The notes beneath the pieces were generated by a model, which did not search any database, was not told where the DNA came from, and saw nothing but the letters and a program-made list of their open reading frames with translations. This document shows positions 17,652 through 55,376 of a stretch of DNA of 64,000 nucleotides, in pieces. The position numbers and the translations under genes are program-made. Origin of the DNA: Desulfobacula sp. (lineage in GTDB: Bacteria; Desulfobacterota; Desulfobacteria; Desulfobacterales; Desulfobacteraceae); the NCBI RefSeq assembly GCF_030145145.1, contig NZ_JAQYWD010000002.1, forward strand, positions 124,001 to 188,000. The letters are read 5' to 3'. The stretch's first letter is position 1, and every line of letters starts with the position of its first letter.

Positions 17652-17905
17652 ACTGAACCTGAATATAAAAATATTTTTCCAGGGTAAATCAGGCCGGTTA
17701 TTTGTCACAAAGGATATATCCACACAAATAAAAAACTGTGGTAAATAAATCAATCATCCCCCGGACTCCGACATCAAGCAACTCTTTATAACAACTCATG
17801 GAGAGGAATTACGAGTTCTGTATATCGACCTTAAACTTTAGAAATGGTCAATGCTTGATCGACAGACCCCCGTCCGTTCATCAATGGGCGAAAGAAAAAT
17901 CAGTC
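17652..17905. other. Short gap before higBA remnant
   Basis: No gene seen. Holds the upstream part of the toxin-antitoxin promoter region; the open frame extending left of 17942 is non-homologous readthrough. Confidence 0.4.
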
Positions 17906-17934
17906 TTGACATTTTGTAGTTTAAAAGCTACTTT
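17906..17934 (+). promoter_or_regulatory. Sigma70-like promoter with operator-like repeat for higBA-type gene
   Basis: TTGACA (17906-17911), a 17-nt spacer, then TACTTT (17929-17934) just upstream of the ATG at 17942. GTAG and CTAC arms and repeated TTTAA within the spacer/-10 give an operator-like element, as expected for self-repressed toxin-antitoxin genes. The very short leader suggests start near 17940. Confidence 0.5.
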
Positions 17935-17941
17935 AAGTTTA

Positions 17942-18370
17942 ATGAAAACCACTGAAAGATTCATACAAGAATACATCACCCGGGAAGGCACAAACCCTTT
18001 CAGAGAATGGTTTGATTCCCTGAAAGATGTTCGTACCAGGGCAAAGATGGATGTAAGGATAGGGAGAAAAATGATGGCCACTGTAAATTATCAAGAAGGG
18101 CTTTTAAAAAGGTTACAGGACCCTGAATATGCCTCTGAATACCTGAATGAAGCATTAAAAGAAGGGTCCCAGGAAATGTTCATGTTGGCGCTCCGTGATG
18201 TGGCAAAAGCCAAAGGGATTTCACAAGTCGCCAAGGAAACAAATCTTAACCGGGAAACTATGTATCGGATGTTGTCTGAAAAAGGAAATCCAAATCTTTC
18301 AAGCCTGAATAAATTACTGAATACCCTGGGGCTTACATTGAGTATTGGGCGAAAAGAAAGCGCCGCATAA
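17942..18370 (+). CDS. In-frame HigB-HigA fusion (truncated toxin N-terminus joined to antitoxin)
   Basis: 142 residues. Residues 1-42 (ERFIQEYITREGTNPFREWF, DSLKDVRTRAKMDVRI) match the start of RelE-superfamily HigB/Gp49-type toxins. From about residue 46 the sequence becomes a HigA-type antitoxin: YQEGLLKRLQDPEYASEYLN, EALKEGSQEMFMLALRDVA, then the helix-turn-helix ISQVAKETNLNRETMYRMLS and a KLLNTLGLTLSI tail. The toxin's central and C-terminal part with its catalytic residues is missing. The simplest reading is an internal deletion that removed most of higB and the gene boundary while keeping frame. The product may still bind the operator. A sigma70-like promoter lies directly upstream. 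Confidence 0.75.
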   Translation: MKTTERFIQEYITREGTNPFREWFDSLKDVRTRAKMDVRIGRKMMATVNYQEGLLKRLQDPEYASEYLNEALKEGSQEMFMLALRDVAKAKGISQVAKETNLNRETMYRMLSEKGNPNLSSLNKLLNTLGLTLSIGRKESAA

Positions 18371-19285: not shown

Positions 19286-22200
19286 TTAACGGATCGTTGC
19301 GCCTTGTTTTTCATCTAACCGTGTAAACTCAACCCGGTCAATGATCTGGTCGGCGGGATCCAGACGGTTGAGCTTGATCATTTCAAAGCTGTCCACCGCA
19401 ACGAACAGGTTGCCGTTTTTATCCACCAGTTTCAGGTCATAGGTGTTGGTTTCCTCACCCGACGTCATCTTTTCGGTGATACAAAAGTATTTCGTCTGTC
19501 GTTCAACCTCCCTGTAAACTTTAAAGGACTTTATTTTATACGGCAGGACTGTTCTTGAAGAGGTAAAGAACTCAAGCAGACCACCGGTCTGGAACATGGC
19601 ATCCACCAGTATGGGGGACGTCACAAAATGGGGATTTTTCACCCCCTTGAAAAATTCTTTCAGACTATTGTCCGCCACTGTTGTAATCAATGTATTCCCA
19701 TCAAAAGAATTGATGTCCGTGATGGTGTTGAAAAGGCCAAACATGAACAATCGCTTGGGGTTGTATACCAGGGTCTCAAACTCTCCTTTCCAGGCGACAG
19801 GACTAAATGGCGGCAGTTTGATCTTTTTGGCCTTTAACGGCTTTTCCGCAAACCGGCAGGTGCCTTCATAATGCAGTTTCGGGTCCCCCAGGACAAGTCC
19901 TTTAGGATTTTTGAACAAAGAGGTGATCCGACAATTGAACAGTCCCTCTGACGACCGGTTACCTGAAATCAGGAGTTCTTTGGGCCGCCCTTTTAAGAGC
20001 TTGATTCCGTAAGGAATATGAAGGTCGGTTAATTCAACAAGATGCGGTTTATCGTCGGACAGAGATCTTGCCACCTCTGCCATGGTTTCAATCCCTGTGG
20101 CACCAAGGAACAGCGGCACATCGTCCATGGTGTGATCATGAAGGAAAAGGTCCCTTTCAATATCCAGCACCCGGGAATACGTCATGCCGGTAGCGGTTTT
20201 TTCCACCGGGGTATCCAGAAACGGAAACGGCACATCTTCCGGGTCGCCCAGAAGGCCATCCCTGTCAAAAGAATAATCAAGGCCGGAAAATACCATTTCA
20301 GACTCTGTTTTATCTAAAAGATCGGCCATGAAAAACTTGACCCCTTGTTCCATGGGCAGAAACTGGATGCCCCTTTCCTCCAGCACCCGCTTTACGGTTG
20401 GATTGGTTGCCATACCCACCCCGCCCCAGGCGGTCCAGGCATACACCTTATAGGTTCTTTCCGGGTGCAGCTGTTTCTGGCGGAATAAGGTCTTCCCAAG
20501 GAAATCATTGGCCGAGGTATAATCCACCTGGCCTTCGTTTCCAAAACGGGCCGTAACCGATGAAAACGTAAAAAAGTATTTGTACGTCCGGTCTTTAAAG
20601 GCCTGGAGAAGATTTGTCATGCCTTTGACCTTGACATCCACCACCAATTCAAAGGACCAGAGCTCTTTTTTAGGAATAAACTGGCTCATCTCCATGCCCG
20701 CAGCATGGAAGATGCCATCAATTTTGTCATACTTATCCACCACCGCCTTTACTGCCGCAGCATCGGTGACATCCACACAATTGTATGCCACACTGACCCC
20801 TTGTGACTGAAGATATTCAATGTTGTCAATGGACAGCCGAACCCGCATCAGCCGGTCCAGGGCCCGTTTAATTTCAACGGGTTTCACGCCGGGCATATCC
20901 TCTCTGAGCAGGGCCATGAGTTCTGCCGGGGTAGAGGCTTTGTCCAGGTATTTTGCATCTGTGCTGTAAATGTCATTGATATCCAGGATAATCAGGTTGG
21001 TCTTATACTTTTCCACCACTTGTTTTATAATCTCATAGGTGATTCCCCCGGCACCGCCCGTCACCAGCATGGTCTCGTTCTCAGAAATGACCTGTTGGGT
21101 TTTATCGGCAATGGACGGCTTCATGGAAAGGACATAGCGTTTTTTATTCTTGTACCCCACTTCTACCCGTGTATCTTCGGACAAGAGTTCATTCAAAAAA
21201 AGATCTGTTATCCGACTGATGTTCTTTTTGGGGTGTTTGTAGGAAAAATCCACCACCTTGACCAGGGTATCCGGCAATTCCTTGTTCGCGGTCTTCATAA
21301 GACCTGCAAGACCGGCAAACAGGGGATGGATATCACCGCAACCTTTCCCGTACGGAAATACAACCGAATCAAAGCTAAGGGTTCCCAGAACCGTGCCTTT
21401 TTGTTCAAAGGTTTCAAACAGGCTCTTAATCATCACAAAAAAAGATTTAATGGTGGTATTAAGGGCATCATCTATCTTGCCTTCCGGGTCTTGATTAAAA
21501 TAGAAATCAAGGGGTGCCAGATGGATAAACCCGTTGATATCGGGGAAGGCTGCTTTAAACTCTTCCACCCGTTTTTCCGTGGCTTTCACATCCGTCAGGT
21601 CAAAGATAAAATCCGCATCTTTGCTGCCAATGGTAATAACGTCACCGTTTTTCTGTTTTATTTTCTGGATCACCGCCTTGGCAAACCCATGGCTGTCAAG
21701 GGAGACAATGATTTTTTTCCCCTTAAAATCCTTTTTGGACAATTCCAGGACCTGGGATTCCCTGGCTCTCACAATCAATCGCTTAATCGGGGATGTTGGA
21801 TCGGGAAACTCATTGGTCGCATTTGGCAACATGACCCTGTCCGTTGCCCGGGAAAGCGCCTGGCTTGCCTGGGCAGCCTTCGGGGCTGTCTGGGGTGCAG
21901 GTGCTGCACCTGCCCGGGTCTTAATATAATCCGACAATTTGGCAATGGTGTTCAATTCCCGAAGTTTCAGGTCATCCGGCACGGAAAACCCAAAATGAGA
22001 GGAAACCTTGGCAAAAATTTCCACCTGTTTCACGGTGTCTATTCCAAGGTCTGCTTCAAGATCCAGGCCCTCTTCCAGCATGTCAACCGTGTATCCGGTC
22101 TGGGCGGCAATCACCGATTTAACCATGGCGATAACATCCTCGTCCTGGGCCGGCGCATCAACCGGCACAGAGACCGTTTCCAGTGGTTCGGCCGGGGGGG

Positions 22201-25200
22201 GTGTCTCATGGGATCCACCGACCCTGGACTGGACATACTCACCCAGTCGGGCAATGGTATTCAGGTCCCGGAGTTTTAAATCATCGGGTACGGAAAACCC
22301 AAAATGGGCGGAGATCTTAGCAAAAATTTCCACCTGTTTCACGGTATCGATCCCAAGGTCGGCTTCAAGATCCAGATCCGCGTCCAGCATGTCCGCCGTG
22401 TATCCGGTCTGATCGGCAATCACCTGGGTGATCATGGCCACGGCATTGGACGGAACACCTGGTCGGGCCGGTTGGGGGTCTGGTTGACCCGCATCCTTTG
22501 CCGGTGGTGACGCTGCCATTTCTGCAGCATGGATGTCCAGTCTTGTGGTAACATACTCTTCCAGCCGGGCAATGGTATTCAGATCCCGGAGTTTTAAATC
22601 ATCGGGTACGGAAAACCCAAACAGAGCGGAAATCTTTCCAAATATTTCCACCTGCTTGACCGTATCTATCCCGAGATCCGCTTCAAGATCCAGATCCTCT
22701 TCCAGCATGTCAATGGCATAGCCGGTCTGATCGGCGATCACCTGTGTGATCATGGCCATGGCATTGGAGGGGACAGTCGCTTTCTGTGTTGCTTGAACGT
22801 CTGGTTGAACCGCATCCGGTATCGACCCTGCGGTTTCTGCAGCAGAGATATCCAGTCTTGTCGTAACATACGCTCCCAGCCGGGCAATGGTATTCAAATC
22901 CCGGAGTTTCAGATCGTCCGGTACGGAAAATCCAAACCGGGAGGCAATATTTCCAAAAATCTCCACCTGTTTCACCGTATCAATCCCGAGATCCGCTTCA
23001 AGATCCAGATCGTCTTCCAGCATATCAGCGGCATATCCGGTCTGATCGGCAATAATGGTTTTGATGGTTTCCAGGGCACCGGCACCGGCCAACATCCCGG
23101 GATGCGCTTCAACGGGCGCTGTTTCTGCCGGTACCACAGTTTCCGGTACAACCGGCACAACCGATGGCATGGCCGGGACAACCGGGACTGCAGGGATCTC
23201 CAGGGGCTCGGTTTTCCGGGTGACCGCGGGCAATGCTTCTCCGCCGGCCACGGCACACAGGGTATTGTCAATGATCTTAATTTCAGGGTTTGCAGATCCG
23301 GTGATGTGCTGTAACCAGTTTTGGTATTTCACATTGCCGTCAACCCGATTTTCCTCCACCCGTTTAACAAACATGAACGCAAAATGGGAACCAAATCCAG
23401 CTGCCAGATGAAGACCATATTCACAATTTATTTTTTCCTGACCTGAAAAATTGAGGCGCTTGAAATGGTCGGGAATTTTTTTCAAGTTGGCAATGGGCGG
23501 GGCCTTTCTTTTCTGAAGGGCTTTGATCAACACCACATCTTCTATGGCAGCCCCCAGGGTATGGCCGGTAAACCCCTTGGTATTGGAGATGCAGATGCTG
23601 TTCAGGTGATCGGCAAAGGTACTCTCCAGGGCCGTGACTTCCGCGTCAGCGCTACCACCCCTGGCCGGGGTATAGGTTTCATGGGACATGAACAAAAGCT
23701 TGTCTGCATAGTCCTCTTTTTGAATGTCGTTCTGGGTTTCCACTTTTGTGACAAATTTTTTCATCTCCCGGGACATATGGGGCACATCAATATTATAGGT
23801 GTGAAAAGCAGAATTGGCGATATGGGTGCCAAGGATCTCACACTGACCATTCATCCCCCTTTGCCGTGCACAGGTTTCGCTTTCAATGACAAGGCCCACG
23901 GCACCGGACCCCAGGATGGTGCCGTTCCGGTCTTCGTCAAAGGGTTTGGCCGCTTCTGACACCCGTTTTTTAATGGTGGCGGCGCCCAGTGCCAGAAATC
24001 CGGAGCCCACCCACTGGTTCTGGGCCGGGGACGTGGCATTTTCACCGCCCACCACAAGGACTCTCTTGCATCGGCCAACCCTGATCCAGTCTTCGGCAAT
24101 GCCAATAGCAAGGGTGGTGGAGGCACAGGCTGAACTGACAAGGGTGTTGGGGCCCTTGGCCTTGATAATCTGGGCCAGATGGGCAGACCCCAGGGGACAG
24201 GCATTGGCCAGGAAATTCCGGTCAAACTTATAGGTTTCAAACTCCGACCGTTTTCTTGACTTTGACTTGAAAAACCATTCTGTCAGCTGTTCTTTAATTT
24301 CCAGGTCTTTTATTTTCTCCATGAGAAAATAATAAATGGTTTCAAACTCTTCATAGGGCTTGAGAAAAAACTTTTCATAAAAATATTTCTCAAGTTCCAG
24401 CATCAGGGTTTCGCCGTTGGGCCACAGGGAGGTAATGATCACCCCTGTTTCTTCCTGCATCTCCTGGGGCAGGGCAAACCCATCGGGAATCATGGTCTTT
24501 CCGTCTTTCACCGATTTATACTGCATCACCAGGGGGATATTGGCATCTTTTAATGCTTCAATTCCCGCGGCAATCCCCATGGCCATGGTGATATCGTATT
24601 GTTCCTTGATGCCGTATTCATCGGTCAGGTCAAAATACCCCAACTGGCCGGCCAGATGGATAACATCTTCGGCTTTAGTGATCTGGACAAACCGGGCATT
24701 CCCATCGGGCTGTTTGTAAAGCTTGGTGATATTTTTATCGATCAGTCGATCCTGGGCTTCCACGGTCAGTGCATCGATAAAATTATCCCCATTTAAAATA
24801 GCATCAAAATTATCCGCAGCAAACACCCGCCTGGCTTTGCCCGGAAGTCCGACGGAAACCCCTGAAATCAATATTTTGTTGGTATTGAAATGATATCTTT
24901 CAATGGCATCAATGGCACTTTCTCTTTTCTGGCGCTGATATTCCTTGTAAAGGATCTGGTCCACCAGTTGCTGGTTATTTTGCTTAAAGGATTCAAAATC
25001 CTGGGACATCTCGATTTTGGGCAATGCCTTGGGTAAAAGCTCCCGGGTCTCCGGTGCCACCATGGCAGGGCTCACAGGCACCGGCTTTGCCTCAAAAATA
25101 CTATTGCAGTCTGCCAGATATTTTCGGCACGCTTCAAAGGACTTTACCTCTCCTGACTTTGCATCCACGGATACGGCGGTGCCATACTCGCCGATATTGA

Positions 25201-28200
25201 TATTTTTCAACAGATTTACCAGCAGCCGGGACGGACCGATTTCAATAAAATGGGTCCTGCCGGACACATATACATTTTCTATGGATTTTATAAATTCCAC
25301 TGGAGAAATAATCTGTTTTGCCAGCAGGTCTTTGACCTCTTCCGGTCTTTCAGGATACGGTCTTGCATGGGTATTGGAAATGATACTGCCAAACCGGGTG
25401 TCATTAAAGGTAATGGTTTCCAGATAGGCCCTCAACTGATTCGAAGCATCCTGCAAAAGCGGGGTATGGAAGGCCCCAGTGAGATTTAATTTTTTATAGA
25501 ACACCTGCTGTTCCGTCAAAAAAGCGCAGAATTTATCAATGGCCTCAGCCGTCCCGGAAACGGCTGTCTGTTTTTCGCTGTTTTTATTGGTGATATAAAT
25601 GTTGGCGACAAAGGATTTTCTGATCATCTGCTCTGTCTCCCGTTCATTTTTAAATACCACCATAATTTTTCCCGAAACCTTTACCGTGGAATCATACATG
25701 AGGTCCGATCGTTTGATGATCAACCGCATGGTATCTTCAAACGAGAGCATGCCGCTGCAGAACAACGCGGTATATTCTCCCACGCTGTGGCCGATGAAAT
25801 AATCCGGCGAAAACCCTTCTTGTGTCAACCGGCTGTAAATAGCAGCGGAAGAGAGGAAAACGGCCGGTTGGGTATTCTGTGTTGAGTTGATGGCCTCATC
25901 GGTTCCAAACATCATGTCCAGCAGAGAATATCCCCTTTGTTCGACAAAGATCTTTTCGCCTTTTTCCATGACGGTTCGAATGTGGGCATCCCGTTCAAAC
26001 AGCGCTTTCATCATATGGCTTCGCTGGGCACCCTGGCCGGACAGCAGGGCCACCATTCTCAGTTTTTTGCCCCTTTCATCCGCAGAGTAAGCATGGTCGA
26101 TCAATACAATATCATCCCCGGCAGCGGCCTGGAATTCAACATCTATTGCCGGTTCTTCTTTGTCAAGCACCGCCGGCAGGGTACTCATGATCATATGACA
26201 GTGATTCCCGCCAATCCCGTTGACATTGGCCGCAAACCGGAAGGACTGTCCTTTGGGCCTGACCGTAATCCGGTCGGCAGGGGTTAAAATTTTACTGTCA
26301 TTTAAAGTAGAATGGTCGGGGTTATAATTAAAATCCGGCAGCATTTTCCCGTTTTGGTTCATGAGCATCAGTTTTGCCATGGCCACTGCCGGATTGGCTG
26401 CCTTGAAATATCCAAACTGGGGTTTAACATTTCCACACTGCATCTCATGGTCAAAGCAATTTTCAATCACCTGCTTTTCAACCATATCTCCAAAAATATT
26501 GGAAAATGCAAACAGGTCCAGATGATTGATATCCTGTTTCCTGATGCCACTCTTATAATAGGTTTCGTTAATGGTGGAGACAAAGGTCTGTTCCGAAGGG
26601 GACAGCAGATGATCCGGTACGCTTGAGCGCACGGAACACGCGTTGATCTCGCCCAGGATCTCCAGATCATACTCTTTGGCCTTTTTATAGGTGGTCATCA
26701 AATGAATGGCAGCACCCTCTCCCATAACATACCCGTCCGCCCGGGAATCATAAAAATTACACTCCCCTTCCGACAGCAGGCCGATGCGTTTAAACGCCAT
26801 GAGAACTGCCGGATACAGGTTGCAGTCAACCCCGCCGGCCAGGACAAAATCAAGATCTTTGTGCTTTAAATTCCGTGCTGCATTTCGCATGGCAATGGAA
26901 GCCGATGCACAGGATGCATCAATGACGTAATTGGCGCCGTTCAACCCGAAATAATTGGTAATCCTGCCGGAAATAATATTGGACAACAGCCCGGGGGTTG
27001 TATCTTCATTGTTTTCGGGTATGGTATTCCGGATCGCTGCCACCACCTGTTCTGACAGCCGCGTGAGCGTATCAGTATCCATATCTGGACACGTTTTTAT
27101 GATATTGCCGATAAATTGTTTTCGGACCCGGATAATATTTTTGCTCTGGCGCTCGCCGGCAATGGTCCCCAGGATGACCCCCACCTTGTTGCCGGCACTC
27201 AGTTGTGCCAGGAGGCCGGAACTTTCCAGGGCCTCATTGGCTGCCTCCAGCCCGAAAAGCTGACCCCTCTCAATGGATTTAACCATCATGGGGGGCATTC
27301 GATATTTCAGGTTATTGAATTTATAGTCTTTGACAATACCGGCGTTTACTTTGGGAAGCCAGTAAGGGGAAGTTTTATCAGCCTTTGCATAGGCATCATT
27401 GTCAAAATGAGACAACGGAATGCCGGACAATTGTTTTTTTCCGGATTGAAGCTTCTCCCAGAACTCTTTTGTGTTTTTTGCCCCGGGAAGAAACACCCCG
27501 AGACCTGCCACCACAATTCGGTCATCATTAAAATCATACGCCGGATCCGTAAAAATATCCCGGGGAACCGGGCTGTAATGCGGTGTCATCTGCTCAACCA
27601 CAATGTGATAATTAATACCGCCAAACCCGTAAGAAGAGACGGCCGCTTTCCTGGAAGTGTTGGTTTCCTGGGTCCACTGAGTTGGCTCTTTTATAATAAA
27701 CAGGGAAGACCCGTTTAAATCGTGATTTTTCGAAAGGGTTTCAAACTGGCCATTGGGCGGCAGTATGCCTTTCTTCACCGTCAATAATGCCTTTAATAAT
27801 CCTGCTGATCCGGCACACCCTAACAGATGTCCGATCTGGGATTTGATGGAAGAGATGCCGGCCGAGGCATTTTTATAGATTAAATTCAAGGTCTCCAGTT
27901 CTGCCTGATCACCAATGGTGGTGGCGGTGCCATGGGCTTCAATAAATCCGATATCTTCAGGACGGATGTCGGGCCGGATATTTTCAAAACAGCGCTGGAC
28001 ACTTAATACCTGACCTGTGGGATTGGGTGCGGCAATGGCTTTGCCCTTGCCGTCGGAACTTGACCCAATGGCATTGATGACCCCCAGGATACGGTTCTTA
28101 TCCCTGATGGCATCTTTCATTCTTTTTAATACAAAAACAACGGATCCCTCCCCCAGGATAAACCCGTCCGCCCGCTGATCAAACGGGTATGAACCGGTTG

Positions 28201-31048
28201 CCGACAAGGTCCCCATTTTTGCAAACCCGATAAAGGATTCCGGTGCCAGGTGGGTATTGACCCCCCCCACAATGACCTGATCATGTTCACCGGACAAAAG
28301 TTCGTCAGTGGCCGCGTCAAGGGCTGTCACTGAAGACGCACAGGCTGCATCAACAATGTAATTTGCCCCCCTCACACCCAAATGGCGGGCAATCCTTGAG
28401 GCTTCAATGTTCAGCAGGATACCATGTACCGGATCATATCCGGGATTTTCACCTTCCAGACCTTCCAGCAGGACCTGTTTGACGGTGGCTTGTTCTTCAT
28501 CACTCAAGGTCTGATATTCATCTGTTTTTTCCATCATGGAAACCAGTTGCGGATACCAGTACTTGAGCTGAATGTCATTGCCCAGTTCATTGGAAAGGCA
28601 GGTGGCAATAATCACCGCTGTTCTTGACGGATCATCACAGATCAGGTGATCATTTTCCCCTAAGAGTCCGGCATTTTCAACGGCTTTGTAGGCGGTCTGT
28701 AACACCATTTTCTGGCTCCGGGAAAGTCTTTTTTCCTTGCCCTGGGCATACCCGAACCGTTCCCAGTCAAACTCAAACTGATCCACATGACCTGAAAGGG
28801 TGGTGTAGGTCTTATCCTCTGCACTCCTGTCAGGGTCATAATACAGATCATGATCAAATCTCGATTTTGGCATGGGGCTGATGGAATAGCGTTTATCCAG
28901 AATATTTTCCCACAACCGGTCCGGATCATCGGCATCCGGAAGTGTACAGCCCATGCCCACCACGGCAATTTCATCATTAATTTTGTTTTTCGAGCTTGAA
29001 AAAATCTCAAGGAAATTAAGATTTTTATAAAGGATTGATTTGGCTTCAAAATATTTGTCATGGATCTGTTGTATGGTAACAGACCGGTCAAAAAAAGCCA
29101 GACTGTCCCCCACCAGGAAATTTCCCTTTTCCTTGTGTTCTTCATCTTCAAACCAGGTGTAATGCTCGGGTCCCGGGTTTTTAAAATCCGGGAGAAATCC
29201 TTTGGCCCCGATGAGCAGGGAGCCGATATTTTTCTTTTCAAAGGCTCGTTTTCTGTTCTCAAGCGTTTCCTTGTTTTTCATCATTTCAGCTTCAGTTTCA
29301 AGCATCATCCTGGCAAACTCGGTGGGCGCGGTCCGGGATGCCAATCCCAAACTTTTGCCGATCACCATGGTCTCATTTTCCTGGATAATAATGTCCCGGT
29401 ATTGAGATGTCATACATTGGGTGTCCACGATTTCATCGGTAAACAGATAAACGGTTCCCACCTGCAACCCAATTTTGGCCCCTTTTGCGGCCAGGAAAGC
29501 GGTCAGTCCTGAGATAAAAAACGAGGCAAAACAGGTGGAAATCCCCCCGGCAAAGACCAGGTAGATATCTGACAGGTCATACTTTTTATTGATTAAGCTG
29601 GCAATGGCCGCCTCCCACAACACCATGCTGGAAAGCGTGCCCACATGGCCACCGGCTTCCCCGCCTTCAAAGATAAACCGTTTGCAACCGCTCTTCAGGG
29701 CATTTTCCATCATGGATACCGATGGCGTATGCAGATAGGTTTTGGTCCCTGCCCGCTCAAGATCTGCGGCCTGGGAAGGCATCCCGCCGGCAAAAAGGGC
29801 ATAGGGGATTTTATATTTTTTTACCATGTCCAGGTGTTTTTCCACCATGGGATTAAAGGCTTCAATGCCCACAAGCCCTGCCCCGAAAATTTCCAGTTCC
29901 TGGGCCCCTTTTTTTAACATGGCATCGGCCAGATTTTCAGGAAGGCTTCCCACTGCAAAAAACGGCAAGGCCCCCTGTTCAAAAACCTTTTTCGCGAAAT
30001 CAGCATTATCGGATATATTGGCCATGGGTCCCTGAATCAAAGGGAATCGGGTTCCCTGGTCCCGGGCAAAGGCAGAGTCCGGTTTTACCGGATCAAATGT
30101 GTCAATATCATTTAAATTTTCACCAATGGTTTTGAATAAACCGGCGATAATATCCCCCAGGCAGGTCGAGTCTTTTACAAAATCCTTTGCAAACATCCCA
30201 TCCTGACCCAGATAAAAGAGCGACTGAATAAACGGGACATCGTCCCTGTCAAAGGCGGTCATATGATCGGCAATGGACTGATACACCGCTTGTTTTCCTT
30301 GGGGATCATCACCAAATTCAACGGCCTCAAGTTTCAGGTCTTTAACGATCTTCGTCCCCAGTTTTGCAAACACCCGGTAGATATCCCTGTTATTATAGGA
30401 AATCTCTGTGGAATCACTTTCATCCACCATGGCCAGGAGTTTTTTAAAATTATCCGATACCGGCGCTTCATCTGTCATGAGGAACTGACTGTCCATGACA
30501 AGACCTGACACACCGGCTGCAAACATACCAGTCGCCGTATATTTGCCGACTCCCCCGTGGATGAACAACGGAAGGTCACTGTTTTCCAAGTACCATTGCA
30601 TCAGGATAAAAGAGGAATATCTTGATACCTTTCCACCGGCTTCGTTGCCTTTCAGGATCAAGGCATGGGGGGAAGCCTCTTTTATCCGGTCATTGATATT
30701 GATATCTTTGATCTCAAGAACAATTTTAGTATCGGCAAAATTGCTGACATCGGCAGGTGAGTCCTCTTTTGAAAGGGGAAAAATCAATAGATCAAGGTTC
30801 ATCATCTGCAATTGCTTTATTTTCTCGACAAGGGCTGTATCATGGGTTGATAGTCGAATACCAAAACTGAATGTTTCTCTGGCGAGCAACCTGGCCTTTT
30901 GAAGGATGTCGTCGGGGGATATGAATTCCGTATCAAATACCGGAAGAGCGCCAGCGTTGTAAATATCGTTAAAATACTTTACATCAAATACCTTCACCGG
31001 CGTATAAACCATTAAAGGCAGTCTTGAGTTGAGTATTCTTCTAATCAT
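19286..31048 (-). CDS. Giant PUFA-synthase-like multidomain lipid synthase (3,920 aa)
   Basis: ATG 31048 with GGAG 8 nt upstream. Domain order: degenerate FMN/nitronate-monooxygenase-like domain (about 1-230, KGNEAGGKV, GGVG); PfaD-like FMN enoyl reductase (about 330-640, LIQGPMANIS, EGGEAGGHVG); KS1 (690-1147; Cys903, His1039, His1074); KS2/CLF-like (1173-1620; Cys1380 but the HGT and second His blocks are replaced); AT (about 1645-1940; Ser1755 in GHSVGEY, His1861); KS3 (2050-2560; Cys2308, His2456 in SHETYTPARG, His2496); four ACPs (2655-3044), each with Thr where the pantetheine Ser is expected; KR (about 3090-3540, TGGAGG, YTSAN); hot-dog DH (3600-3900; His3637/His3639, Asp3816). Together these cover all activities of PfaA-PfaD, which make long polyunsaturated or related chains from malonyl units. 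The product here is unknown; no PPTase gene is in the window. Confidence 0.93.
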   Translation of the reverse strand: MIRRILNSRLPLMVYTPVKVFDVKYFNDIYNAGALPVFDTEFISPDDILQKARLLARETFSFGIRLSTHDTALVEKIKQLQMMNLDLLIFPLSKEDSPADVSNFADTKIVLEIKDININDRIKEASPHALILKGNEAGGKVSRYSSFILMQWYLENSDLPLFIHGGVGKYTATGMFAAGVSGLVMDSQFLMTDEAPVSDNFKKLLAMVDESDSTEISYNNRDIYRVFAKLGTKIVKDLKLEAVEFGDDPQGKQAVYQSIADHMTAFDRDDVPFIQSLFYLGQDGMFAKDFVKDSTCLGDIIAGLFKTIGENLNDIDTFDPVKPDSAFARDQGTRFPLIQGPMANISDNADFAKKVFEQGALPFFAVGSLPENLADAMLKKGAQELEIFGAGLVGIEAFNPMVEKHLDMVKKYKIPYALFAGGMPSQAADLERAGTKTYLHTPSVSMMENALKSGCKRFIFEGGEAGGHVGTLSSMVLWEAAIASLINKKYDLSDIYLVFAGGISTCFASFFISGLTAFLAAKGAKIGLQVGTVYLFTDEIVDTQCMTSQYRDIIIQENETMVIGKSLGLASRTAPTEFARMMLETEAEMMKNKETLENRKRAFEKKNIGSLLIGAKGFLPDFKNPGPEHYTWFEDEEHKEKGNFLVGDSLAFFDRSVTIQQIHDKYFEAKSILYKNLNFLEIFSSSKNKINDEIAVVGMGCTLPDADDPDRLWENILDKRYSISPMPKSRFDHDLYYDPDRSAEDKTYTTLSGHVDQFEFDWERFGYAQGKEKRLSRSQKMVLQTAYKAVENAGLLGENDHLICDDPSRTAVIIATCLSNELGNDIQLKYWYPQLVSMMEKTDEYQTLSDEEQATVKQVLLEGLEGENPGYDPVHGILLNIEASRIARHLGVRGANYIVDAACASSVTALDAATDELLSGEHDQVIVGGVNTHLAPESFIGFAKMGTLSATGSYPFDQRADGFILGEGSVVFVLKRMKDAIRDKNRILGVINAIGSSSDGKGKAIAAPNPTGQVLSVQRCFENIRPDIRPEDIGFIEAHGTATTIGDQAELETLNLIYKNASAGISSIKSQIGHLLGCAGSAGLLKALLTVKKGILPPNGQFETLSKNHDLNGSSLFIIKEPTQWTQETNTSRKAAVSSYGFGGINYHIVVEQMTPHYSPVPRDIFTDPAYDFNDDRIVVAGLGVFLPGAKNTKEFWEKLQSGKKQLSGIPLSHFDNDAYAKADKTSPYWLPKVNAGIVKDYKFNNLKYRMPPMMVKSIERGQLFGLEAANEALESSGLLAQLSAGNKVGVILGTIAGERQSKNIIRVRKQFIGNIIKTCPDMDTDTLTRLSEQVVAAIRNTIPENNEDTTPGLLSNIISGRITNYFGLNGANYVIDASCASASIAMRNAARNLKHKDLDFVLAGGVDCNLYPAVLMAFKRIGLLSEGECNFYDSRADGYVMGEGAAIHLMTTYKKAKEYDLEILGEINACSVRSSVPDHLLSPSEQTFVSTINETYYKSGIRKQDINHLDLFAFSNIFGDMVEKQVIENCFDHEMQCGNVKPQFGYFKAANPAVAMAKLMLMNQNGKMLPDFNYNPDHSTLNDSKILTPADRITVRPKGQSFRFAANVNGIGGNHCHMIMSTLPAVLDKEEPAIDVEFQAAAGDDIVLIDHAYSADERGKKLRMVALLSGQGAQRSHMMKALFERDAHIRTVMEKGEKIFVEQRGYSLLDMMFGTDEAINSTQNTQPAVFLSSAAIYSRLTQEGFSPDYFIGHSVGEYTALFCSGMLSFEDTMRLIIKRSDLMYDSTVKVSGKIMVVFKNERETEQMIRKSFVANIYITNKNSEKQTAVSGTAEAIDKFCAFLTEQQVFYKKLNLTGAFHTPLLQDASNQLRAYLETITFNDTRFGSIISNTHARPYPERPEEVKDLLAKQIISPVEFIKSIENVYVSGRTHFIEIGPSRLLVNLLKNINIGEYGTAVSVDAKSGEVKSFEACRKYLADCNSIFEAKPVPVSPAMVAPETRELLPKALPKIEMSQDFESFKQNNQQLVDQILYKEYQRQKRESAIDAIERYHFNTNKILISGVSVGLPGKARRVFAADNFDAILNGDNFIDALTVEAQDRLIDKNITKLYKQPDGNARFVQITKAEDVIHLAGQLGYFDLTDEYGIKEQYDITMAMGIAAGIEALKDANIPLVMQYKSVKDGKTMIPDGFALPQEMQEETGVIITSLWPNGETLMLELEKYFYEKFFLKPYEEFETIYYFLMEKIKDLEIKEQLTEWFFKSKSRKRSEFETYKFDRNFLANACPLGSAHLAQIIKAKGPNTLVSSACASTTLAIGIAEDWIRVGRCKRVLVVGGENATSPAQNQWVGSGFLALGAATIKKRVSEAAKPFDEDRNGTILGSGAVGLVIESETCARQRGMNGQCEILGTHIANSAFHTYNIDVPHMSREMKKFVTKVETQNDIQKEDYADKLLFMSHETYTPARGGSADAEVTALESTFADHLNSICISNTKGFTGHTLGAAIEDVVLIKALQKRKAPPIANLKKIPDHFKRLNFSGQEKINCEYGLHLAAGFGSHFAFMFVKRVEENRVDGNVKYQNWLQHITGSANPEIKIIDNTLCAVAGGEALPAVTRKTEPLEIPAVPVVPAMPSVVPVVPETVVPAETAPVEAHPGMLAGAGALETIKTIIADQTGYAADMLEDDLDLEADLGIDTVKQVEIFGNIASRFGFSVPDDLKLRDLNTIARLGAYVTTRLDISAAETAGSIPDAVQPDVQATQKATVPSNAMAMITQVIADQTGYAIDMLEEDLDLEADLGIDTVKQVEIFGKISALFGFSVPDDLKLRDLNTIARLEEYVTTRLDIHAAEMAASPPAKDAGQPDPQPARPGVPSNAVAMITQVIADQTGYTADMLDADLDLEADLGIDTVKQVEIFAKISAHFGFSVPDDLKLRDLNTIARLGEYVQSRVGGSHETPPPAEPLETVSVPVDAPAQDEDVIAMVKSVIAAQTGYTVDMLEEGLDLEADLGIDTVKQVEIFAKVSSHFGFSVPDDLKLRELNTIAKLSDYIKTRAGAAPAPQTAPKAAQASQALSRATDRVMLPNATNEFPDPTSPIKRLIVRARESQVLELSKKDFKGKKIIVSLDSHGFAKAVIQKIKQKNGDVITIGSKDADFIFDLTDVKATEKRVEEFKAAFPDINGFIHLAPLDFYFNQDPEGKIDDALNTTIKSFFVMIKSLFETFEQKGTVLGTLSFDSVVFPYGKGCGDIHPLFAGLAGLMKTANKELPDTLVKVVDFSYKHPKKNISRITDLFLNELLSEDTRVEVGYKNKKRYVLSMKPSIADKTQQVISENETMLVTGGAGGITYEIIKQVVEKYKTNLIILDINDIYSTDAKYLDKASTPAELMALLREDMPGVKPVEIKRALDRLMRVRLSIDNIEYLQSQGVSVAYNCVDVTDAAAVKAVVDKYDKIDGIFHAAGMEMSQFIPKKELWSFELVVDVKVKGMTNLLQAFKDRTYKYFFTFSSVTARFGNEGQVDYTSANDFLGKTLFRQKQLHPERTYKVYAWTAWGGVGMATNPTVKRVLEERGIQFLPMEQGVKFFMADLLDKTESEMVFSGLDYSFDRDGLLGDPEDVPFPFLDTPVEKTATGMTYSRVLDIERDLFLHDHTMDDVPLFLGATGIETMAEVARSLSDDKPHLVELTDLHIPYGIKLLKGRPKELLISGNRSSEGLFNCRITSLFKNPKGLVLGDPKLHYEGTCRFAEKPLKAKKIKLPPFSPVAWKGEFETLVYNPKRLFMFGLFNTITDINSFDGNTLITTVADNSLKEFFKGVKNPHFVTSPILVDAMFQTGGLLEFFTSSRTVLPYKIKSFKVYREVERQTKYFCITEKMTSGEETNTYDLKLVDKNGNLFVAVDSFEMIKLNRLDPADQIIDRVEFTRLDEKQGATIR
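21915..23090 (-). repeat. Four tandem acyl-carrier-protein repeats within the synthase
   Basis: Repeat unit about 105 codons: DQTGY, LDLEADLGIDTVKQVEIF, GFSVPDDLKLRDLNTIARL, joined by Pro/Ala/Val linkers. The attachment residue is Thr in each: positions 2691, 2796, 2902 and 3005 (codons ACG, ACG, ACC, ACC). Units are very similar, consistent with recent duplication or gene conversion. Confidence 0.9.
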
Positions 31049-31124: not shown

Positions 31125-31140
31125 ATCAAGTATCGTGCCA
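31125..31140 (-). promoter_or_regulatory. Sigma54-type promoter of the giant synthase
   Basis: On the minus strand TGGCACGATACTTGAT: a perfect -24 block (TGGCACG), four bases, then TTGAT in place of TTGCA. Spacing GG-N10-G is correct. Transcription would start near 31114, about 65 nt before the ATG. The divergent neighbour encodes a sigma54 activator. Confidence 0.65.
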
Positions 31141-31248
31141 AAAGGGTTAGAATTTCGTAACTATTCAAAATTATGTCTATTTTTTAATATGATCCGGATT
31201 TTAAGTCCTCTCATACTGATTTTTTTCTTGCATTTTATGCATACTCCT

Positions 31249-31264
31249 TGTACAAAATTGTACA
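31249..31264. promoter_or_regulatory. Activator-site-like inverted repeat between synthase and regulator
   Basis: TGTACAA-AA-TTGTACA, 7-bp arms, about 110-125 bp upstream of the sigma54 promoter and 32 bp before the regulator start. The distance suits an enhancer-binding-protein site; it may also serve autoregulation of the activator. Confidence 0.5.
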
Positions 31265-31295
31265 TGATTAGATTTGTTATCGGATGGGAAAAAAA

Positions 31296-32780
31296 ATGAA
31301 ACCAGCCACGCTCAATTCCGAAGAGTACCCGTTTTTCAAAACCGTTTATAATGCCGCGTTTGCCAATCCCTTCAGTGAGTTAAGAGAAACACTGGACCTT
31401 AAAATTGCCGGCCTTTTCCCTTCGGCTTCCCGGCGGGAAAGCATTGACCAGTGCATCAATGAAGTGAATCTCCGGATAAAAAAGCTTGAACACCAGGGCC
31501 GCGCCAATATCAATGCCTTTCATGGACAGGACAGGGACATCATCACCATTGTCTTCCTCTTTGATATCTTTCACAAATTCAGGGATGATTTTGATCAGCT
31601 GATCAAGGATCAAATCAAGGCTGAAGACACATTAATCAAGGTTCCCTTTGCCCCAAAAGCCATCCACATGCTCCAGGCAAAGGGGTTTGACGACAAGCGT
31701 ATCTCCCACTATTTTGCCCTTTCCTATCAACTCAGACGGGCCTTTTACTTTATTTCCAACTCCCTGGTGGGCGACAGCCCGTGCATGAAAAAGCTTAAAA
31801 AACATTTGTGGTACAATGTTTTTACTTACAATATGGAACTTTACAGCAAATTTTTATGGAACAAAATGGAGGACTTTTCCACCCTTTTGCTGGGGGAAAC
31901 CGGCACGGGAAAAGGCACGGCTGCTAAAGCCATTGGCAGAAGCGGATATATTCCCTTTGATGAAAAAAAGCAATGCTTTACCCAGAGCTTCACCCGGGCG
32001 TTTTCGTCCCTGAACCTTTCCCAGTATCCTGAGACCCTCCTGGAATCTGAATTGTTCGGCCACACAAAAGGGGCGTTCACAGGCGCAATGGAGGATTACC
32101 AGGGGGTGTTTGACCGGTGCAGTCCCCATGGGTCCATTCTTTTGGATGAAATCGGTGAAATCCCCAACCATGTGCAGATCAAACTATTAAGAATCCTTCA
32201 GGAAAGAAGTTTTTCTCCTGTGGGAACCCACGAGACATCAAGATTCAATGGTCGGGTCATCGCCGCCACCAACCGGCCGAAAAAAGACATCCTCAGCGGC
32301 AAGGTCTTCAGAGATGATTTCTATTACCGGCTGTGCTCCGATATCATTGAAGTGCCCCCCCTTAGCATCCGGATCAAAGAGAAACCATCTGAACTGGATG
32401 ACCTCCTGGATTTTACCATTCAGAGGATGACAGGCACCCGTTCTGAAAAATTAACGTCTAAAGTCAAAAGAATTATTGACCGACAGCTTGGAAAACATTA
32501 TCAATGGCCAGGAAATGTCCGGGAACTTGAACAATGCGTAAGGAGCGTTTTATTGCGGCGGGACTATAAAGGCAAACAGACAGATACGGTGGAAAGCGGT
32601 TCCCTTTCCCAGGAATTGACCCAGGGGATCTTGAACCGGAACATATTGGTTTCCTCTCTGATATCCGGTTATTGCAAGGTCCTGTACGACAAATTCGGCA
32701 CCTATGAAAAGGTTGCAAAACTGACAGGACTGGATAGAAGGACCATAAAAAAACATATTATGAATTTCAAACGAGACTGA
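31296..32780 (+). CDS. Sigma54-dependent transcriptional activator, divergent from the synthase
   Basis: 494 residues from ATG 31296; the in-frame ATG at 31284 adds MGKK. N-terminal 190 residues form an unrecognised helical domain (EYPFFKTVYNAAFANPFSEL), not a receiver, PAS or GAF domain that I can identify. Then an AAA+ domain: Walker A GETGTGKGT, the sigma54-contact loop GAFTGA (in GHTKGAFTGAMEDYQG), Walker B GSILLDEIGEI, arginine-finger area RDDFYYRL. The C-terminus holds a Fis-like helix-turn-helix (YEKVAKLTGLDRRTIKKHIM). It should remodel sigma54 polymerase, most simply at the promoter at 31125-31140. It is followed 8 nt later by the acyltransferase gene. Its signal is unknown. Confidence 0.88.
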   Translation: MKPATLNSEEYPFFKTVYNAAFANPFSELRETLDLKIAGLFPSASRRESIDQCINEVNLRIKKLEHQGRANINAFHGQDRDIITIVFLFDIFHKFRDDFDQLIKDQIKAEDTLIKVPFAPKAIHMLQAKGFDDKRISHYFALSYQLRRAFYFISNSLVGDSPCMKKLKKHLWYNVFTYNMELYSKFLWNKMEDFSTLLLGETGTGKGTAAKAIGRSGYIPFDEKKQCFTQSFTRAFSSLNLSQYPETLLESELFGHTKGAFTGAMEDYQGVFDRCSPHGSILLDEIGEIPNHVQIKLLRILQERSFSPVGTHETSRFNGRVIAATNRPKKDILSGKVFRDDFYYRLCSDIIEVPPLSIRIKEKPSELDDLLDFTIQRMTGTRSEKLTSKVKRIIDRQLGKHYQWPGNVRELEQCVRSVLLRRDYKGKQTDTVESGSLSQELTQGILNRNILVSSLISGYCKVLYDKFGTYEKVAKLTGLDRRTIKKHIMNFKRD

Positions 32781-32788
32781 AAAAAGTT

Positions 32789-33676
32789 ATGCTCTATTTT
32801 TTACCCCATCCCCTCAAAGGCATATTATCGATTGTGCTCTATGCACTGAACACCATCTGCCTGACCCTCCCGTTGATTCTCTTTTCTTTTTTCAAATTTA
32901 TCGTACCGGTTCAGTCGTTTATTGTGATTCTTGATAAACTCCTCATCGCCATTGCCACCCTCTGGATAGGCATCAATTCATTCAATTCAAAGTTGTTCTG
33001 TAAAATAGACTGGGATATCAGGGGGCTTGAAAAATTAAAAGAAAAAGAATGGTACCTGGTTTTGTCCAATCACCAGTCCTGGGTGGACATTCTGGTGCTG
33101 CAGACAACCTTGAACCAAAAAATCCCCATGCTCAAATTTTTCTTAAAACAGGAACTGATCTGGGTCCCTTTTTTAGGCCTTGCCTGGTGGGCACTGGATT
33201 TTCCGTTTATGAAACGGTATTCAAAAAAACAATTAATCGAAAAACCCCATCTAAAGGGCAAGGATATTGCGAACACCAAAAAGGCCTGTGAAAAGTTTAA
33301 ACACACCCCCATCTCCATTATAAATTTTGTTGAAGGGACTCGATTCACGCCCCAAAAAAAAATGTCCCAGAACAATCATTTCAAGTATCTCCTGAGTCCA
33401 AAAGCCGGCGGTATCGCCTTTGTCTTGAATTCCATGGGCGATTATTTTCATAACATCATTGATATCACCATTGTGTATCCGGATAAAATCCCCACATTCT
33501 GGGAGTATATTTCAGGAAGGGTTCATAAAATTATCATTGACTTTGACGTCATCCCCTTAACCGATTCTCTGATTGGAGATTATTCAAATGACCCTGAATA
33601 TAAGGATCATTTTTTCAAATGGCTGAACAGGCTATGGCAAAAGAAAGATGAAAAAATAAATGCCTTGAAATCTTAA
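32789..33676 (+). CDS. Lysophospholipid acyltransferase (PlsC/YihG-like)
   Basis: 295 residues. Two N-terminal hydrophobic segments (about 10-65) precede the LPLAT domain: catalytic NHQSWVD (HX4D, about residue 95), then FLKQELIWVPFLG, PFMKRYS, and substrate block NFVEGTRFT (about residue 182). Length and the FVEGTR form fit the YihG-type subgroup of 1-acyl-glycerol-3-phosphate acyltransferases at the inner membrane. It starts 8 nt after the sigma54 activator gene, so the two are one operon and both sit beside the giant synthase. I infer that it helps put the synthase product into phospholipid. Confidence 0.88.
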   Translation: MLYFLPHPLKGILSIVLYALNTICLTLPLILFSFFKFIVPVQSFIVILDKLLIAIATLWIGINSFNSKLFCKIDWDIRGLEKLKEKEWYLVLSNHQSWVDILVLQTTLNQKIPMLKFFLKQELIWVPFLGLAWWALDFPFMKRYSKKQLIEKPHLKGKDIANTKKACEKFKHTPISIINFVEGTRFTPQKKMSQNNHFKYLLSPKAGGIAFVLNSMGDYFHNIIDITIVYPDKIPTFWEYISGRVHKIIIDFDVIPLTDSLIGDYSNDPEYKDHFFKWLNRLWQKKDEKINALKS

Positions 33677-55324: not shown

Positions 55325-55376
55325 CAAGCGAATAGGCCTTGAAATTAATATTTTGTTAACTGCATGAGACGTCTCA

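Follow-up and report, generated by a model that had tools for sequence, protein, structure and literature searches.

Identification of a single-chain synthase

We analyzed a 64,000-nucleotide stretch of the Desulfobacula sp. genome (contig NZ_JAQYWD010000002.1 of assembly GCF_030145145.1, hereafter the window), and focused on one gene, which codes for a single-chain synthase related to fatty acid synthases (FAS). The preliminary description of this DNA had placed two flavoprotein-like domains, ketosynthase (KS), acyltransferase (AT), acyl carrier protein (ACP), ketoreductase (KR) and dehydratase (DH) domains in one stop-free open reading frame (ORF), and this was confirmed by Pfam, with the gene lying on the minus strand, which had been left unstated. 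Profile scans with Pfam and NCBIfam models were run on the whole protein and on eight pieces of it, and they gave the domain order ER'-ER-KS-KS'-AT-KS-ACP4-KR-DH from the N to the C terminus, where ER stands for enoyl reductase. The Pfam count for the synthase was three KS, one AT, four PP-binding, one KR and one PS-DH domain, together with two stretches matching the nitronate monooxygenase (NMO) family, and no thioesterase was found. As in type I fatty acid synthases, the AT, KS, KR, DH, ER and ACP domains are all on one chain, with active sites that are conserved except in the first ER (ER1) and the second KS (KS2). The preliminary description was right in taking the protein for a self-contained synthase that builds lipids iteratively and begins with a duplicated flavin barrel. 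The coordinates of all features are summarized in Table 1.

Table 1. Coordinates in the window of the synthase gene, its domains and the adjoining features
Feature	Position	Strand	Remarks and support
Single-chain synthase gene	19286..31048	-	3,920 aa, stop-free ORF; orthologues of like length and order
ER1, degenerate FMN-type TIM barrel (residues 1-325)	30074..31048	-	NMO 31.9 bits; FabK model 31.6 bits alone
ER2, FabK-like enoyl reductase (residues 326-665), His468	29054..30073	-	Profile, sequence and fold
KS1 (residues 690-1157): C903, H1039, K1069, H1074	27578..28981	-	PF00109, 199 bits
KS2 (residues 1172-1625): Cys1380 present, both His gone	26174..27535	-	Pfam and alignment
AT (residues 1665-1955): S1755, R1780, H1861; FabD-like	25184..26056	-	TIGR00128, 200 bits (cut-off 260.9)
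KS3 (residues 2050-2570): C2308, H2456, K2491, H2496; divergent lineage	23339..24901	-	Pfam, alignment and tree
ACP1, Thr2691 at the phosphopantetheine site	22853..23086	-	PF00550; aligned to the Ser of E. coli AcpP
ACP2, Thr2796 at the phosphopantetheine site	22538..22765	-	PF00550; alignment with E. coli AcpP
ACP3, Thr2902 at the phosphopantetheine site	22220..22450	-	PF00550; alignment with E. coli AcpP
ACP4, Thr3005 at the phosphopantetheine site	21911..22138	-	PF00550; alignment with E. coli AcpP
KR (residues 3085-3600): S3497, Y3510, N3514	20249..21796	-	PF08659, 107 bits
DH, polyketide synthase-type double hotdog (residues 3605-3900): H3639, D3816, Q3820	19349..20236	-	PF14765 and model
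Sigma-54 (-24/-12) promoter-like site of the synthase, TGGCACGATACTTGAT	31125..31140	-	Pattern TGGCA[CT]N5TTG
Divergent sigma-54 activator with GAFTGA; no receiver domain found	31284..32780	+	PF00158 and sequence
YihG-family lysophosphatidate acyltransferase, next gene	32789..33676	+	NF058536, 428 bits (cut-off 260)

Active sites and folds of the synthase domains

Residue conservation was determined from 21 aligned full-length copies, all of the host's family (family f1), and this revealed that the catalytic residues probed in ER2 (His468), KS1, AT, KS3, KR and DH are invariant. H468 was also invariant in 33 aligned heads (the head being the tandem ER region), including those of Asgard archaea. 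Within the 21 copies, the position of the catalytic His in ER1 is occupied by K, R, M, N or Q, and KS2 retains its Cys and has lost both His residues. KS2 appears to be a structural partner resembling a chain-length factor (CLF).

The head was modelled as two well-packed barrels (pLDDT 92.3, pTM 0.93). A fold search with it returned FabK first (E value of 1e-19, TMt up to 0.87), and the PfaD structure 4z9r appeared at rank 48 (TMt 0.49). FabK was also the sole relevant NCBIfam model for the head, and NMO the sole relevant Pfam family. ER2 shares the fold and the EAGGH motif with the FabK enoyl reductase, and it differs in being fused, in an identity of 18 to 24% among the fold matches and in a score far under the FabK cut-off of 453 bits. 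The preliminary description had called the head PfaD-like, an assignment that it would have given up had a domain search shown the N-terminal domains to be unrelated to PfaD. The assignment was not borne out, and this refuting result was obtained in part: profile, sequence and fold all place the second barrel closest to FabK, the catalytic His is missing from the first, and no more than a distant superfamily kinship with PfaD is left.

The DH domain (model pLDDT 90) had polyketide synthase (PKS) dehydratases as its best fold matches in the PDB. Polyunsaturated fatty acid (PUFA) synthases require FabA-type dehydratase/isomerase domains, and no such domain (PF07977) was found in the 3,920 residues, nor in the DH region at an E value of ≤1. 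The PfaA model TIGR02813 scored 872.3 bits in four stretches, under its curated cut-off of 1010, and tandem ACPs, a trait of Pfa synthases, are present, four of them in the window protein. Thus, the whole PUFA synthase activity set that had been attributed to the protein is not there, since PF07977 is missing from it and FabA-like domains occur instead in two other proteins of the host, C44 and C28. Because KR, DH and ER are conserved and no isomerase was found, the expected product of the synthase would be saturated chains, so the product looks more predictable than the preliminary description had allowed.

The host genome (G000; 5.66 Mb in 89 contigs) codes for C44 (L061:4265-11782), a protein of 2,506 aa with the order KS-AT-ACP2-KR-DH-FabA2, and for C28 (L062:6886-11268), of 1,461 aa with the order KS-KS-FabA2. 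This separate Pfa-like pair could make unsaturated chains. Another tandem-ER synthase, C15 (L059:5317-12630; ER-ER-KS-AT-ACP-KR, 2,438 aa), has a Ser-type ACP motif. A tandem-ER query over the phylum matched 23 of 395 genomes at E ≤1e-30, and many of these matches are other tandem-ER proteins of about 2,450 to 2,800 aa with 28 to 33% identity.

Threonine at the carrier site

The phosphopantetheine modification of carrier domains is normally described on serine. At the ACP site, where type I fatty acid synthases have Ser, the window protein has Thr four times: all four ACPs read LGIDTVKQVE, in which the Thr aligns with the phosphopantetheine Ser of E. coli AcpP. Thr was found in all of the 191 readable ACP copies from 63 non-redundant loci. 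The 194 ACP matches comprised 189 scored as Thr, two read as Thr by eye (L115 and L145) and three that were unreadable, owing to a broken frame (L099) or to being cut off (L128 and L146). Ser was present in C44, C15 and C15b of the host genome and in the other megasynthases with a matched motif.

The same residue was seen in more distant synthases. ACPs of G676, from another family of Desulfobacterota, and of two loci in metagenome-assembled genomes (MAGs) of Heimdallarchaeota, which are Asgard archaea, read LGIDTVKQAE, and all three synthases end in a phosphopantetheinyl transferase (PPTase) domain (PF01648, 56 to 65 bits against a cut-off of 25). The fused PPTase makes phosphopantetheinylation of Thr plausible. 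Searching a plasmid collection with the ACP yielded one match, in Nonomuraea, with Thr likewise, which indicated that Thr-ACPs are wider than f1. No report of Thr-ACP carriers was found in the open-licence literature. The Thr at the carrier site is firm as sequence, and its carrier chemistry is a prediction. Neither this residue in the four ACPs, nor the lost catalytic residues of ER1 and KS2, nor the lack of a FabA-type DH had been noticed in the preliminary description.

Distribution and integrity of the synthase gene

The 700-residue head gave matches in 74 of 86 f1 genomes, in 41 of the 42 of good quality and in 12 of 14 genera. Two of these matches (in G039 and G073) were weak and to small stand-alone flavoproteins, which left 72 real ones. 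For 46 of the latter the open frame is 3,500 aa or longer, and several of these come from one-contig genomes. The remainder are mostly on short contigs; in G021, a one-contig genome, the head is broken over two frames. Because so many copies are whole ORFs, including those in one-contig genomes, an assembly artefact joining separate genes, which had been named as a possible objection, is excluded, and so is chance. The fused head, thought unusual at the outset, proved to be standard within the host's bacterial family.

Named carriers belong to Desulfobacula, Desulfospira, Desulfotignum, Desulfocicer, Desulfamplus, Desulfobacter and Desulfoluna. Among the named loci the domain order is constant in complete ORFs, and the ACPs found number from 1 to 8, nearly all from 2 to 4; broken frames occur in L091, L099, L105, L132 and L145. 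One genome, G062, has two equal-scoring head matches on different contigs (C3:331030-333129 and C8:164748-166847), reflecting either a duplicated gene or an assembly repeat. In a sample of the order comprising 291 genomes, 53 matched the head at E ≤1e-30. Of these, 17 are f1 genomes, a further 27 have the close type and 9 have a distant type only. Two spirochaete MAGs carry the whole domain order, and a third carries as much of it as its contig holds.

Discrete fatty acid synthesis genes in carriers and non-carriers

Genomes were searched for genes of the discrete, type II system (FASII), with FabZ (TIGR01750) and canonical FabF (TIGR03150) scored against curated cut-offs. FabZ exceeded its cut-off in none of 84 f1 genomes, five of which have weaker matches. 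In the order sample, which holds 18 f1 genomes, it did so in none of the 8 genomes of the Desulfoluna family (f18, placed by the coordinates of L129, L132 and L134), all of which are carriers. FabZ passed in 225 of the 291 genomes of this sample, and all 225 lie outside f1 and f18 (membership from E values). Likewise, canonical FabF was found in none of the 11 f1 and none of the 5 f18 genomes tested, versus 16 of the 17 tested elsewhere in the order, and five f1 genomes on one or two contigs had no FabF-like match at E ≤1e-60. The host genome yielded no stand-alone KS ORFs other than those of two small clusters, where they adjoin an ACP gene and are not part of a fab operon.

The six genomes of the Desulfoluna genus (g106) had one weak PF07977 match each (E values from 3e-6 to 3e-4) and no FabZ over the cut-off, and canonical FabF was absent in the three of them tested. 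As their PF07977 matches are only weak, the window-type synthase is the only dehydratase-bearing synthase found there. In G017 (f1, 99% complete) the synthase is present and no PF07977 match was obtained. Judged by these matches, the Pfa-like pair seems to be missing in the Desulfoluna genus and in G017.

Two further markers were discarded. In three f1 stretches and one f18 stretch no fabD, fabG, acpP or fabF was seen beside FabH, and an isolated FabH was rejected as a sign of lost FASII, since the gene is equally isolated in the FabZ-bearing genome G105 and in G154. FabI was uninformative as a FASII marker, since in most genomes, those with FASII among them, its matches were only at the level of short-chain dehydrogenases. 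For the three spirochaete MAGs, no FabH was found at 1e-10 and no canonical FabF, and one had a weak FabZ match; these absences are soft, as the genomes are MAGs.

Ketosynthase history and distant relatives

In a tree of 42 KS domains, rooted at the midpoint only and with some weak deep forks, KS3 formed a clade of its own (100/100), which is on the same side of the midpoint split as FabF, and KS2 fell inside the KS1-type group. KS1 and KS3 are present in the Asgard, G676 and Nonomuraea homologues, and KS2 was not found in them. Given this placement and this absence, KS2 seems to have arisen later, by duplication, and to have lost its His residues. The spirochaete KS1 domains cluster with Desulfoluna (98/97), and this grouping suggests transfer.

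The two Heimdallarchaeota synthases (L149:9899-20734 and L150:9959-20770) are about 3,600 aa long, with the order ER1-ER2-KS1-AT-KS3-ACP2-KR-DH-PPTase. The loci differ in GC content (0.407 for L149 versus 0.342 for L150), the synthases are 61% identical across their whole length, and neighbours are shared on both sides (judged by ORF starts), which together argue against contamination. In L149, the locus covered by the Pfam scan, the synthase is adjoined by genes for a biotin ligase, a biotin carrier, a biotin carboxylase and a carboxyltransferase. The L149 type is a possible self-contained archaeal fatty acid synthase on this gene content. In the Asgard DH, Glu replaces the catalytic Asp, so dehydration is less sure there. 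A term search of the open-licence literature for fatty acids of Heimdallarchaeota listed no paper that mentions this group. In the portion of PMC7472256 consulted, a Heimdallarchaeota MAG from Shark Bay mats is described with KS sequences nearest PUFA entries and a potentially novel PKS cluster, so synthase-type genes in Heimdallarchaeota are not new. That cluster may be of the same kind as L149 to L151, and, as far as the same portion goes, the architecture, Thr-ACPs, PPTase and carboxylase link are described only here.

Promoter, activator and neighbouring genes

The pattern of the sigma-54 promoter-like site was sought in 33 loci, which are less redundant than the 51 stretches from which they were drawn, and it was found upstream of the synthase in 27 of them, versus a mean of 0.135 and a maximum of 2 in a first-order Markov control. 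The six loci without the site are L052, L054, L055 and those of the three spirochaete MAGs, the last of which are also without the activator. The activator gene adjoins the synthase in 51 of the 65 named loci with enough upstream sequence. An inverted repeat, TTGTACAAAATTGTACA, lies at positions 31248-31264 of the window, just upstream of the activator gene, and is a candidate operator. The YihG-type acyltransferase is adjacent in 29 of 61 named loci. A role for it as a PUFA-specific lysophosphatidate acyltransferase was considered and rejected, since YihG is, in the part of the published work consulted, the orthologue of SlPlsC4, which prefers i13:0, 14:0 and i15:0, and not of SlPlsC1.

Other genes in the window include an IspH (LytB)-UbiA prenyltransferase fusion in one ORF (35672-37384, minus strand), whose UbiA part recurs in the flanking DNA of the relatives L049 and L052. 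An Antidote-like helix-turn-helix protein (PF21716) is encoded near the 3' end of the synthase gene (17798-18370, plus strand). A 788-aa ORF (52961-55327, minus strand) has a C-terminal histone-deacetylase-like domain (PF00850) preceded by about 450 N-terminal residues without a Pfam match.

Proposed role and alternatives

On balance, the evidence leans towards the view that this protein is a single-chain, iterative, fully reducing type I fatty acid synthase that supplies membrane acyl chains in Desulfobacteraceae. Its biochemistry and product are what we infer from the sequences, as is its primary role, which is moderately supported. Such a role is favored by the finding that canonical FabZ and FabF are missing from the two families in which almost every good genome has the synthase, and the label "secondary" given to the enzyme in the preliminary description does not agree with this. 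A PPTase acting in trans would load the phosphopantetheine arm onto the Thr of each of the four ACPs, and the AT, with its conserved FabD-like site, would load malonyl units. KS1 and/or KS3 would condense, with KS2 as a structural, length-setting partner; KR would then reduce, DH dehydrate and the FMN barrel of ER2 reduce the enoyl group, with ER1 serving as a built-in pseudo-partner. Without a FabA-type isomerase the chain would stay saturated, and the acyl groups would probably be passed to acyltransferases, for example the YihG-type enzyme in loci that have it next to the synthase. Expression would be under sigma-54 control through the dedicated divergent activator, as the conserved promoter and activator suggest.

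Several observations weigh against a primary role of the synthase. Of the 27 carriers outside f1, 18 have FabZ, and 8 of the 9 without it belong to f18. Among the 246 non-carriers outside f1, 39 fail the FabZ cut-off, four of them being good genomes without any match; G154 (f70), which is not a carrier, lacks canonical FabF. G001 (80% complete) and G085 (88%), the sole genomes of two f1 genera, have neither the synthase nor FabZ. A head match is also missing from ten other f1 genomes, most of them fragmented or incomplete, with G048 (97%), G018 and G079 among them, and the one-contig genome G021, with its broken synthase, has neither FabZ nor FabF. FabF-like genes under the cut-off are present in 6 of 11 f1 and 5 of 5 f18 genomes, the best one in the host reaching 474.6 bits versus 493.75, and G026 has a FabZ-like gene of 153.1 bits versus 155.15, adjoining a FabF-like gene of 406.9 bits. 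All 11 f1 and all 3 f18 genomes tested have retained FabH. The genome-wide search for discrete genes covered FabZ, FabF, FabH and FabI. The loss of FASII, as read here, concerns FabZ and FabF, and FabF was listed at E ≤1e-60 only, so that KAS I could be missed outside the host genome. In addition, the joint absence of FabZ and FabF represents two lineages and not 100 independent genomes, and hence no p-value is given.

Part of this evidence is what one would expect if the protein were a secondary-lipid synthase, making a special long or modified saturated chain for an envelope lipid, a wax or a glycolipid, with membrane chains coming from the C44/C28 pair, from the FabF- and FabZ-like genes under the cut-offs that several genomes have, or from several of these together. 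We regard this as possible, if rather doubtful. Almost the whole family has FabA-type domains (PF07977 in 79 of 84 f1 genomes), so that C44/C28 could itself be the core synthase or could divide the task with the window-type protein; G001 and G085 have FabA-type domains in large ORFs, and the dedicated activator and sigma-54 site suggest conditional expression. A secondary role is harder to reconcile with the six Desulfoluna-genus genomes, where the synthase is accompanied by a single weak FabA-type match and by no FabZ over the cut-off, with the missing canonical FabF in the three of these tested, and with the five f1 genomes of one or two contigs that yielded no FabF-like match at E ≤1e-60. 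A PfaD-fused PUFA synthase, with polyunsaturated acids or hydrocarbons as its products like the enzymes of marine gammaproteobacteria, would account for the PfaA score, the tandem ACPs and the CLF-like KS pair. This is highly improbable, as the score lies under the PfaA cut-off, no FabA-type dehydratase/isomerase is present, the ER is nearest FabK with PfaD structures far down the fold list, and the ACP site has Thr, not Ser; it was rejected on domain content and ER affinity. Finally, a Ser-to-Thr change at the phosphopantetheine site of ordinary ACPs is poorly tolerated, and the Thr-ACPs might carry no phosphopantetheine, in which case the protein would be a dead or scaffold enzyme. We hold this to be very unlikely, because Thr is kept in every readable copy within a strongly conserved motif, from bacteria to Asgard MAGs, PPTase domains are fused to Thr-ACP synthases, and the other catalytic residues are invariant in the 21 copies.

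The interpretation thus changes: the enzyme first taken for a secondary synthase of the PUFA kind is probably a primary FAS on a single chain, with a saturated product and Thr carriers. More tentatively, and as a proposal that may well prove wrong in one of its parts, the single-chain lineage would have replaced discrete FASII elongation as the primary machinery in two families of sulfate reducers, with chains growing on phosphopantetheinyl-threonine, and its PPTase-fused version, beside biotin-dependent carboxylase genes, would give some Asgard archaea a self-contained synthase.

Significance and comparison with known systems

The usual teaching is that bacteria, other than the mycobacterial group, make their membrane fatty acids with discrete FASII enzymes. 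If the favored reading is true, the synthase, occurring family-wide, would be the second case of a bacterial type I FAS for primary lipids and independent of the first, and its carrier site would extend the phosphopantetheine modification to Thr. The Asgard version bears on the making of fatty acids by archaea related to eukaryotes, and hence on the question of the lipid divide. Within the open-licence literature, we found no PUFA or PKS report for Desulfobacteraceae and, judged by titles and the starts of abstracts, no report of a Desulfobacula fatty acid synthase.

With the Pfa synthases (PfaA to PfaD), the window protein shares tandem ACPs, the KS-AT-ACP-KR logic, a KS-CLF-like pair and a flavin ER; it differs in being one chain without a FabA-type dehydratase/isomerase, and in its FabK-like ER, its Thr-ACPs and the extra KS3. 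The FAS I of mycobacteria and fungi, made up of one chain or of two, likewise has an FMN barrel as its ER, and its domain order and complex differ from those of the window synthase. Mycobacteria depend on FAS I, unlike most bacteria, as stated in the portion of the literature consulted. The Nonomuraea protein (L208), an actinobacterial KS-AT-KS3-ACP-KR-DH protein, shares KS1, KS3 and the Thr-ACP, and has no fused ER head, no KS2 and one ACP found. Paired ER barrels are also known from the thraustochytrid PUFA synthase, whose ERb and ERc form a heterodimer (PMC13311796, in the parts consulted). There the two barrels are on two chains, are 75 to 80% identical and both have the catalytic His, whereas here they share one chain and the first is without His. 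A precedent for overlap between such systems comes from Photobacterium, in which the Pfa synthase can cover for FabD (PMC8174602, from the part consulted).

The nearest known relative appears to be a synthase of Desulfobacterium autotrophicum HRM2. Genome G057, which we take to be this strain, has a 3,913-aa ORF with the same domain order as the window synthase. In the sections available to us, Shulse and Allen (2011; PMC3098273) list a Type S synthase from HRM2 and suggest that it may be the core FAS of that strain, since fabA and fabZ are missing. The window synthase is probably orthologous to Type S, provided that G057 is indeed HRM2. In a passage of PMC4882568 the HRM2 genes are called possible remnants, and the family-wide conservation reported here speaks against that view. 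Type S was known, as far as those sections go, from one strain, and what is added here is the family-wide pattern, the absence of canonical FabF, the Thr-ACPs, the sigma-54 site and the Asgard and spirochaete relatives.

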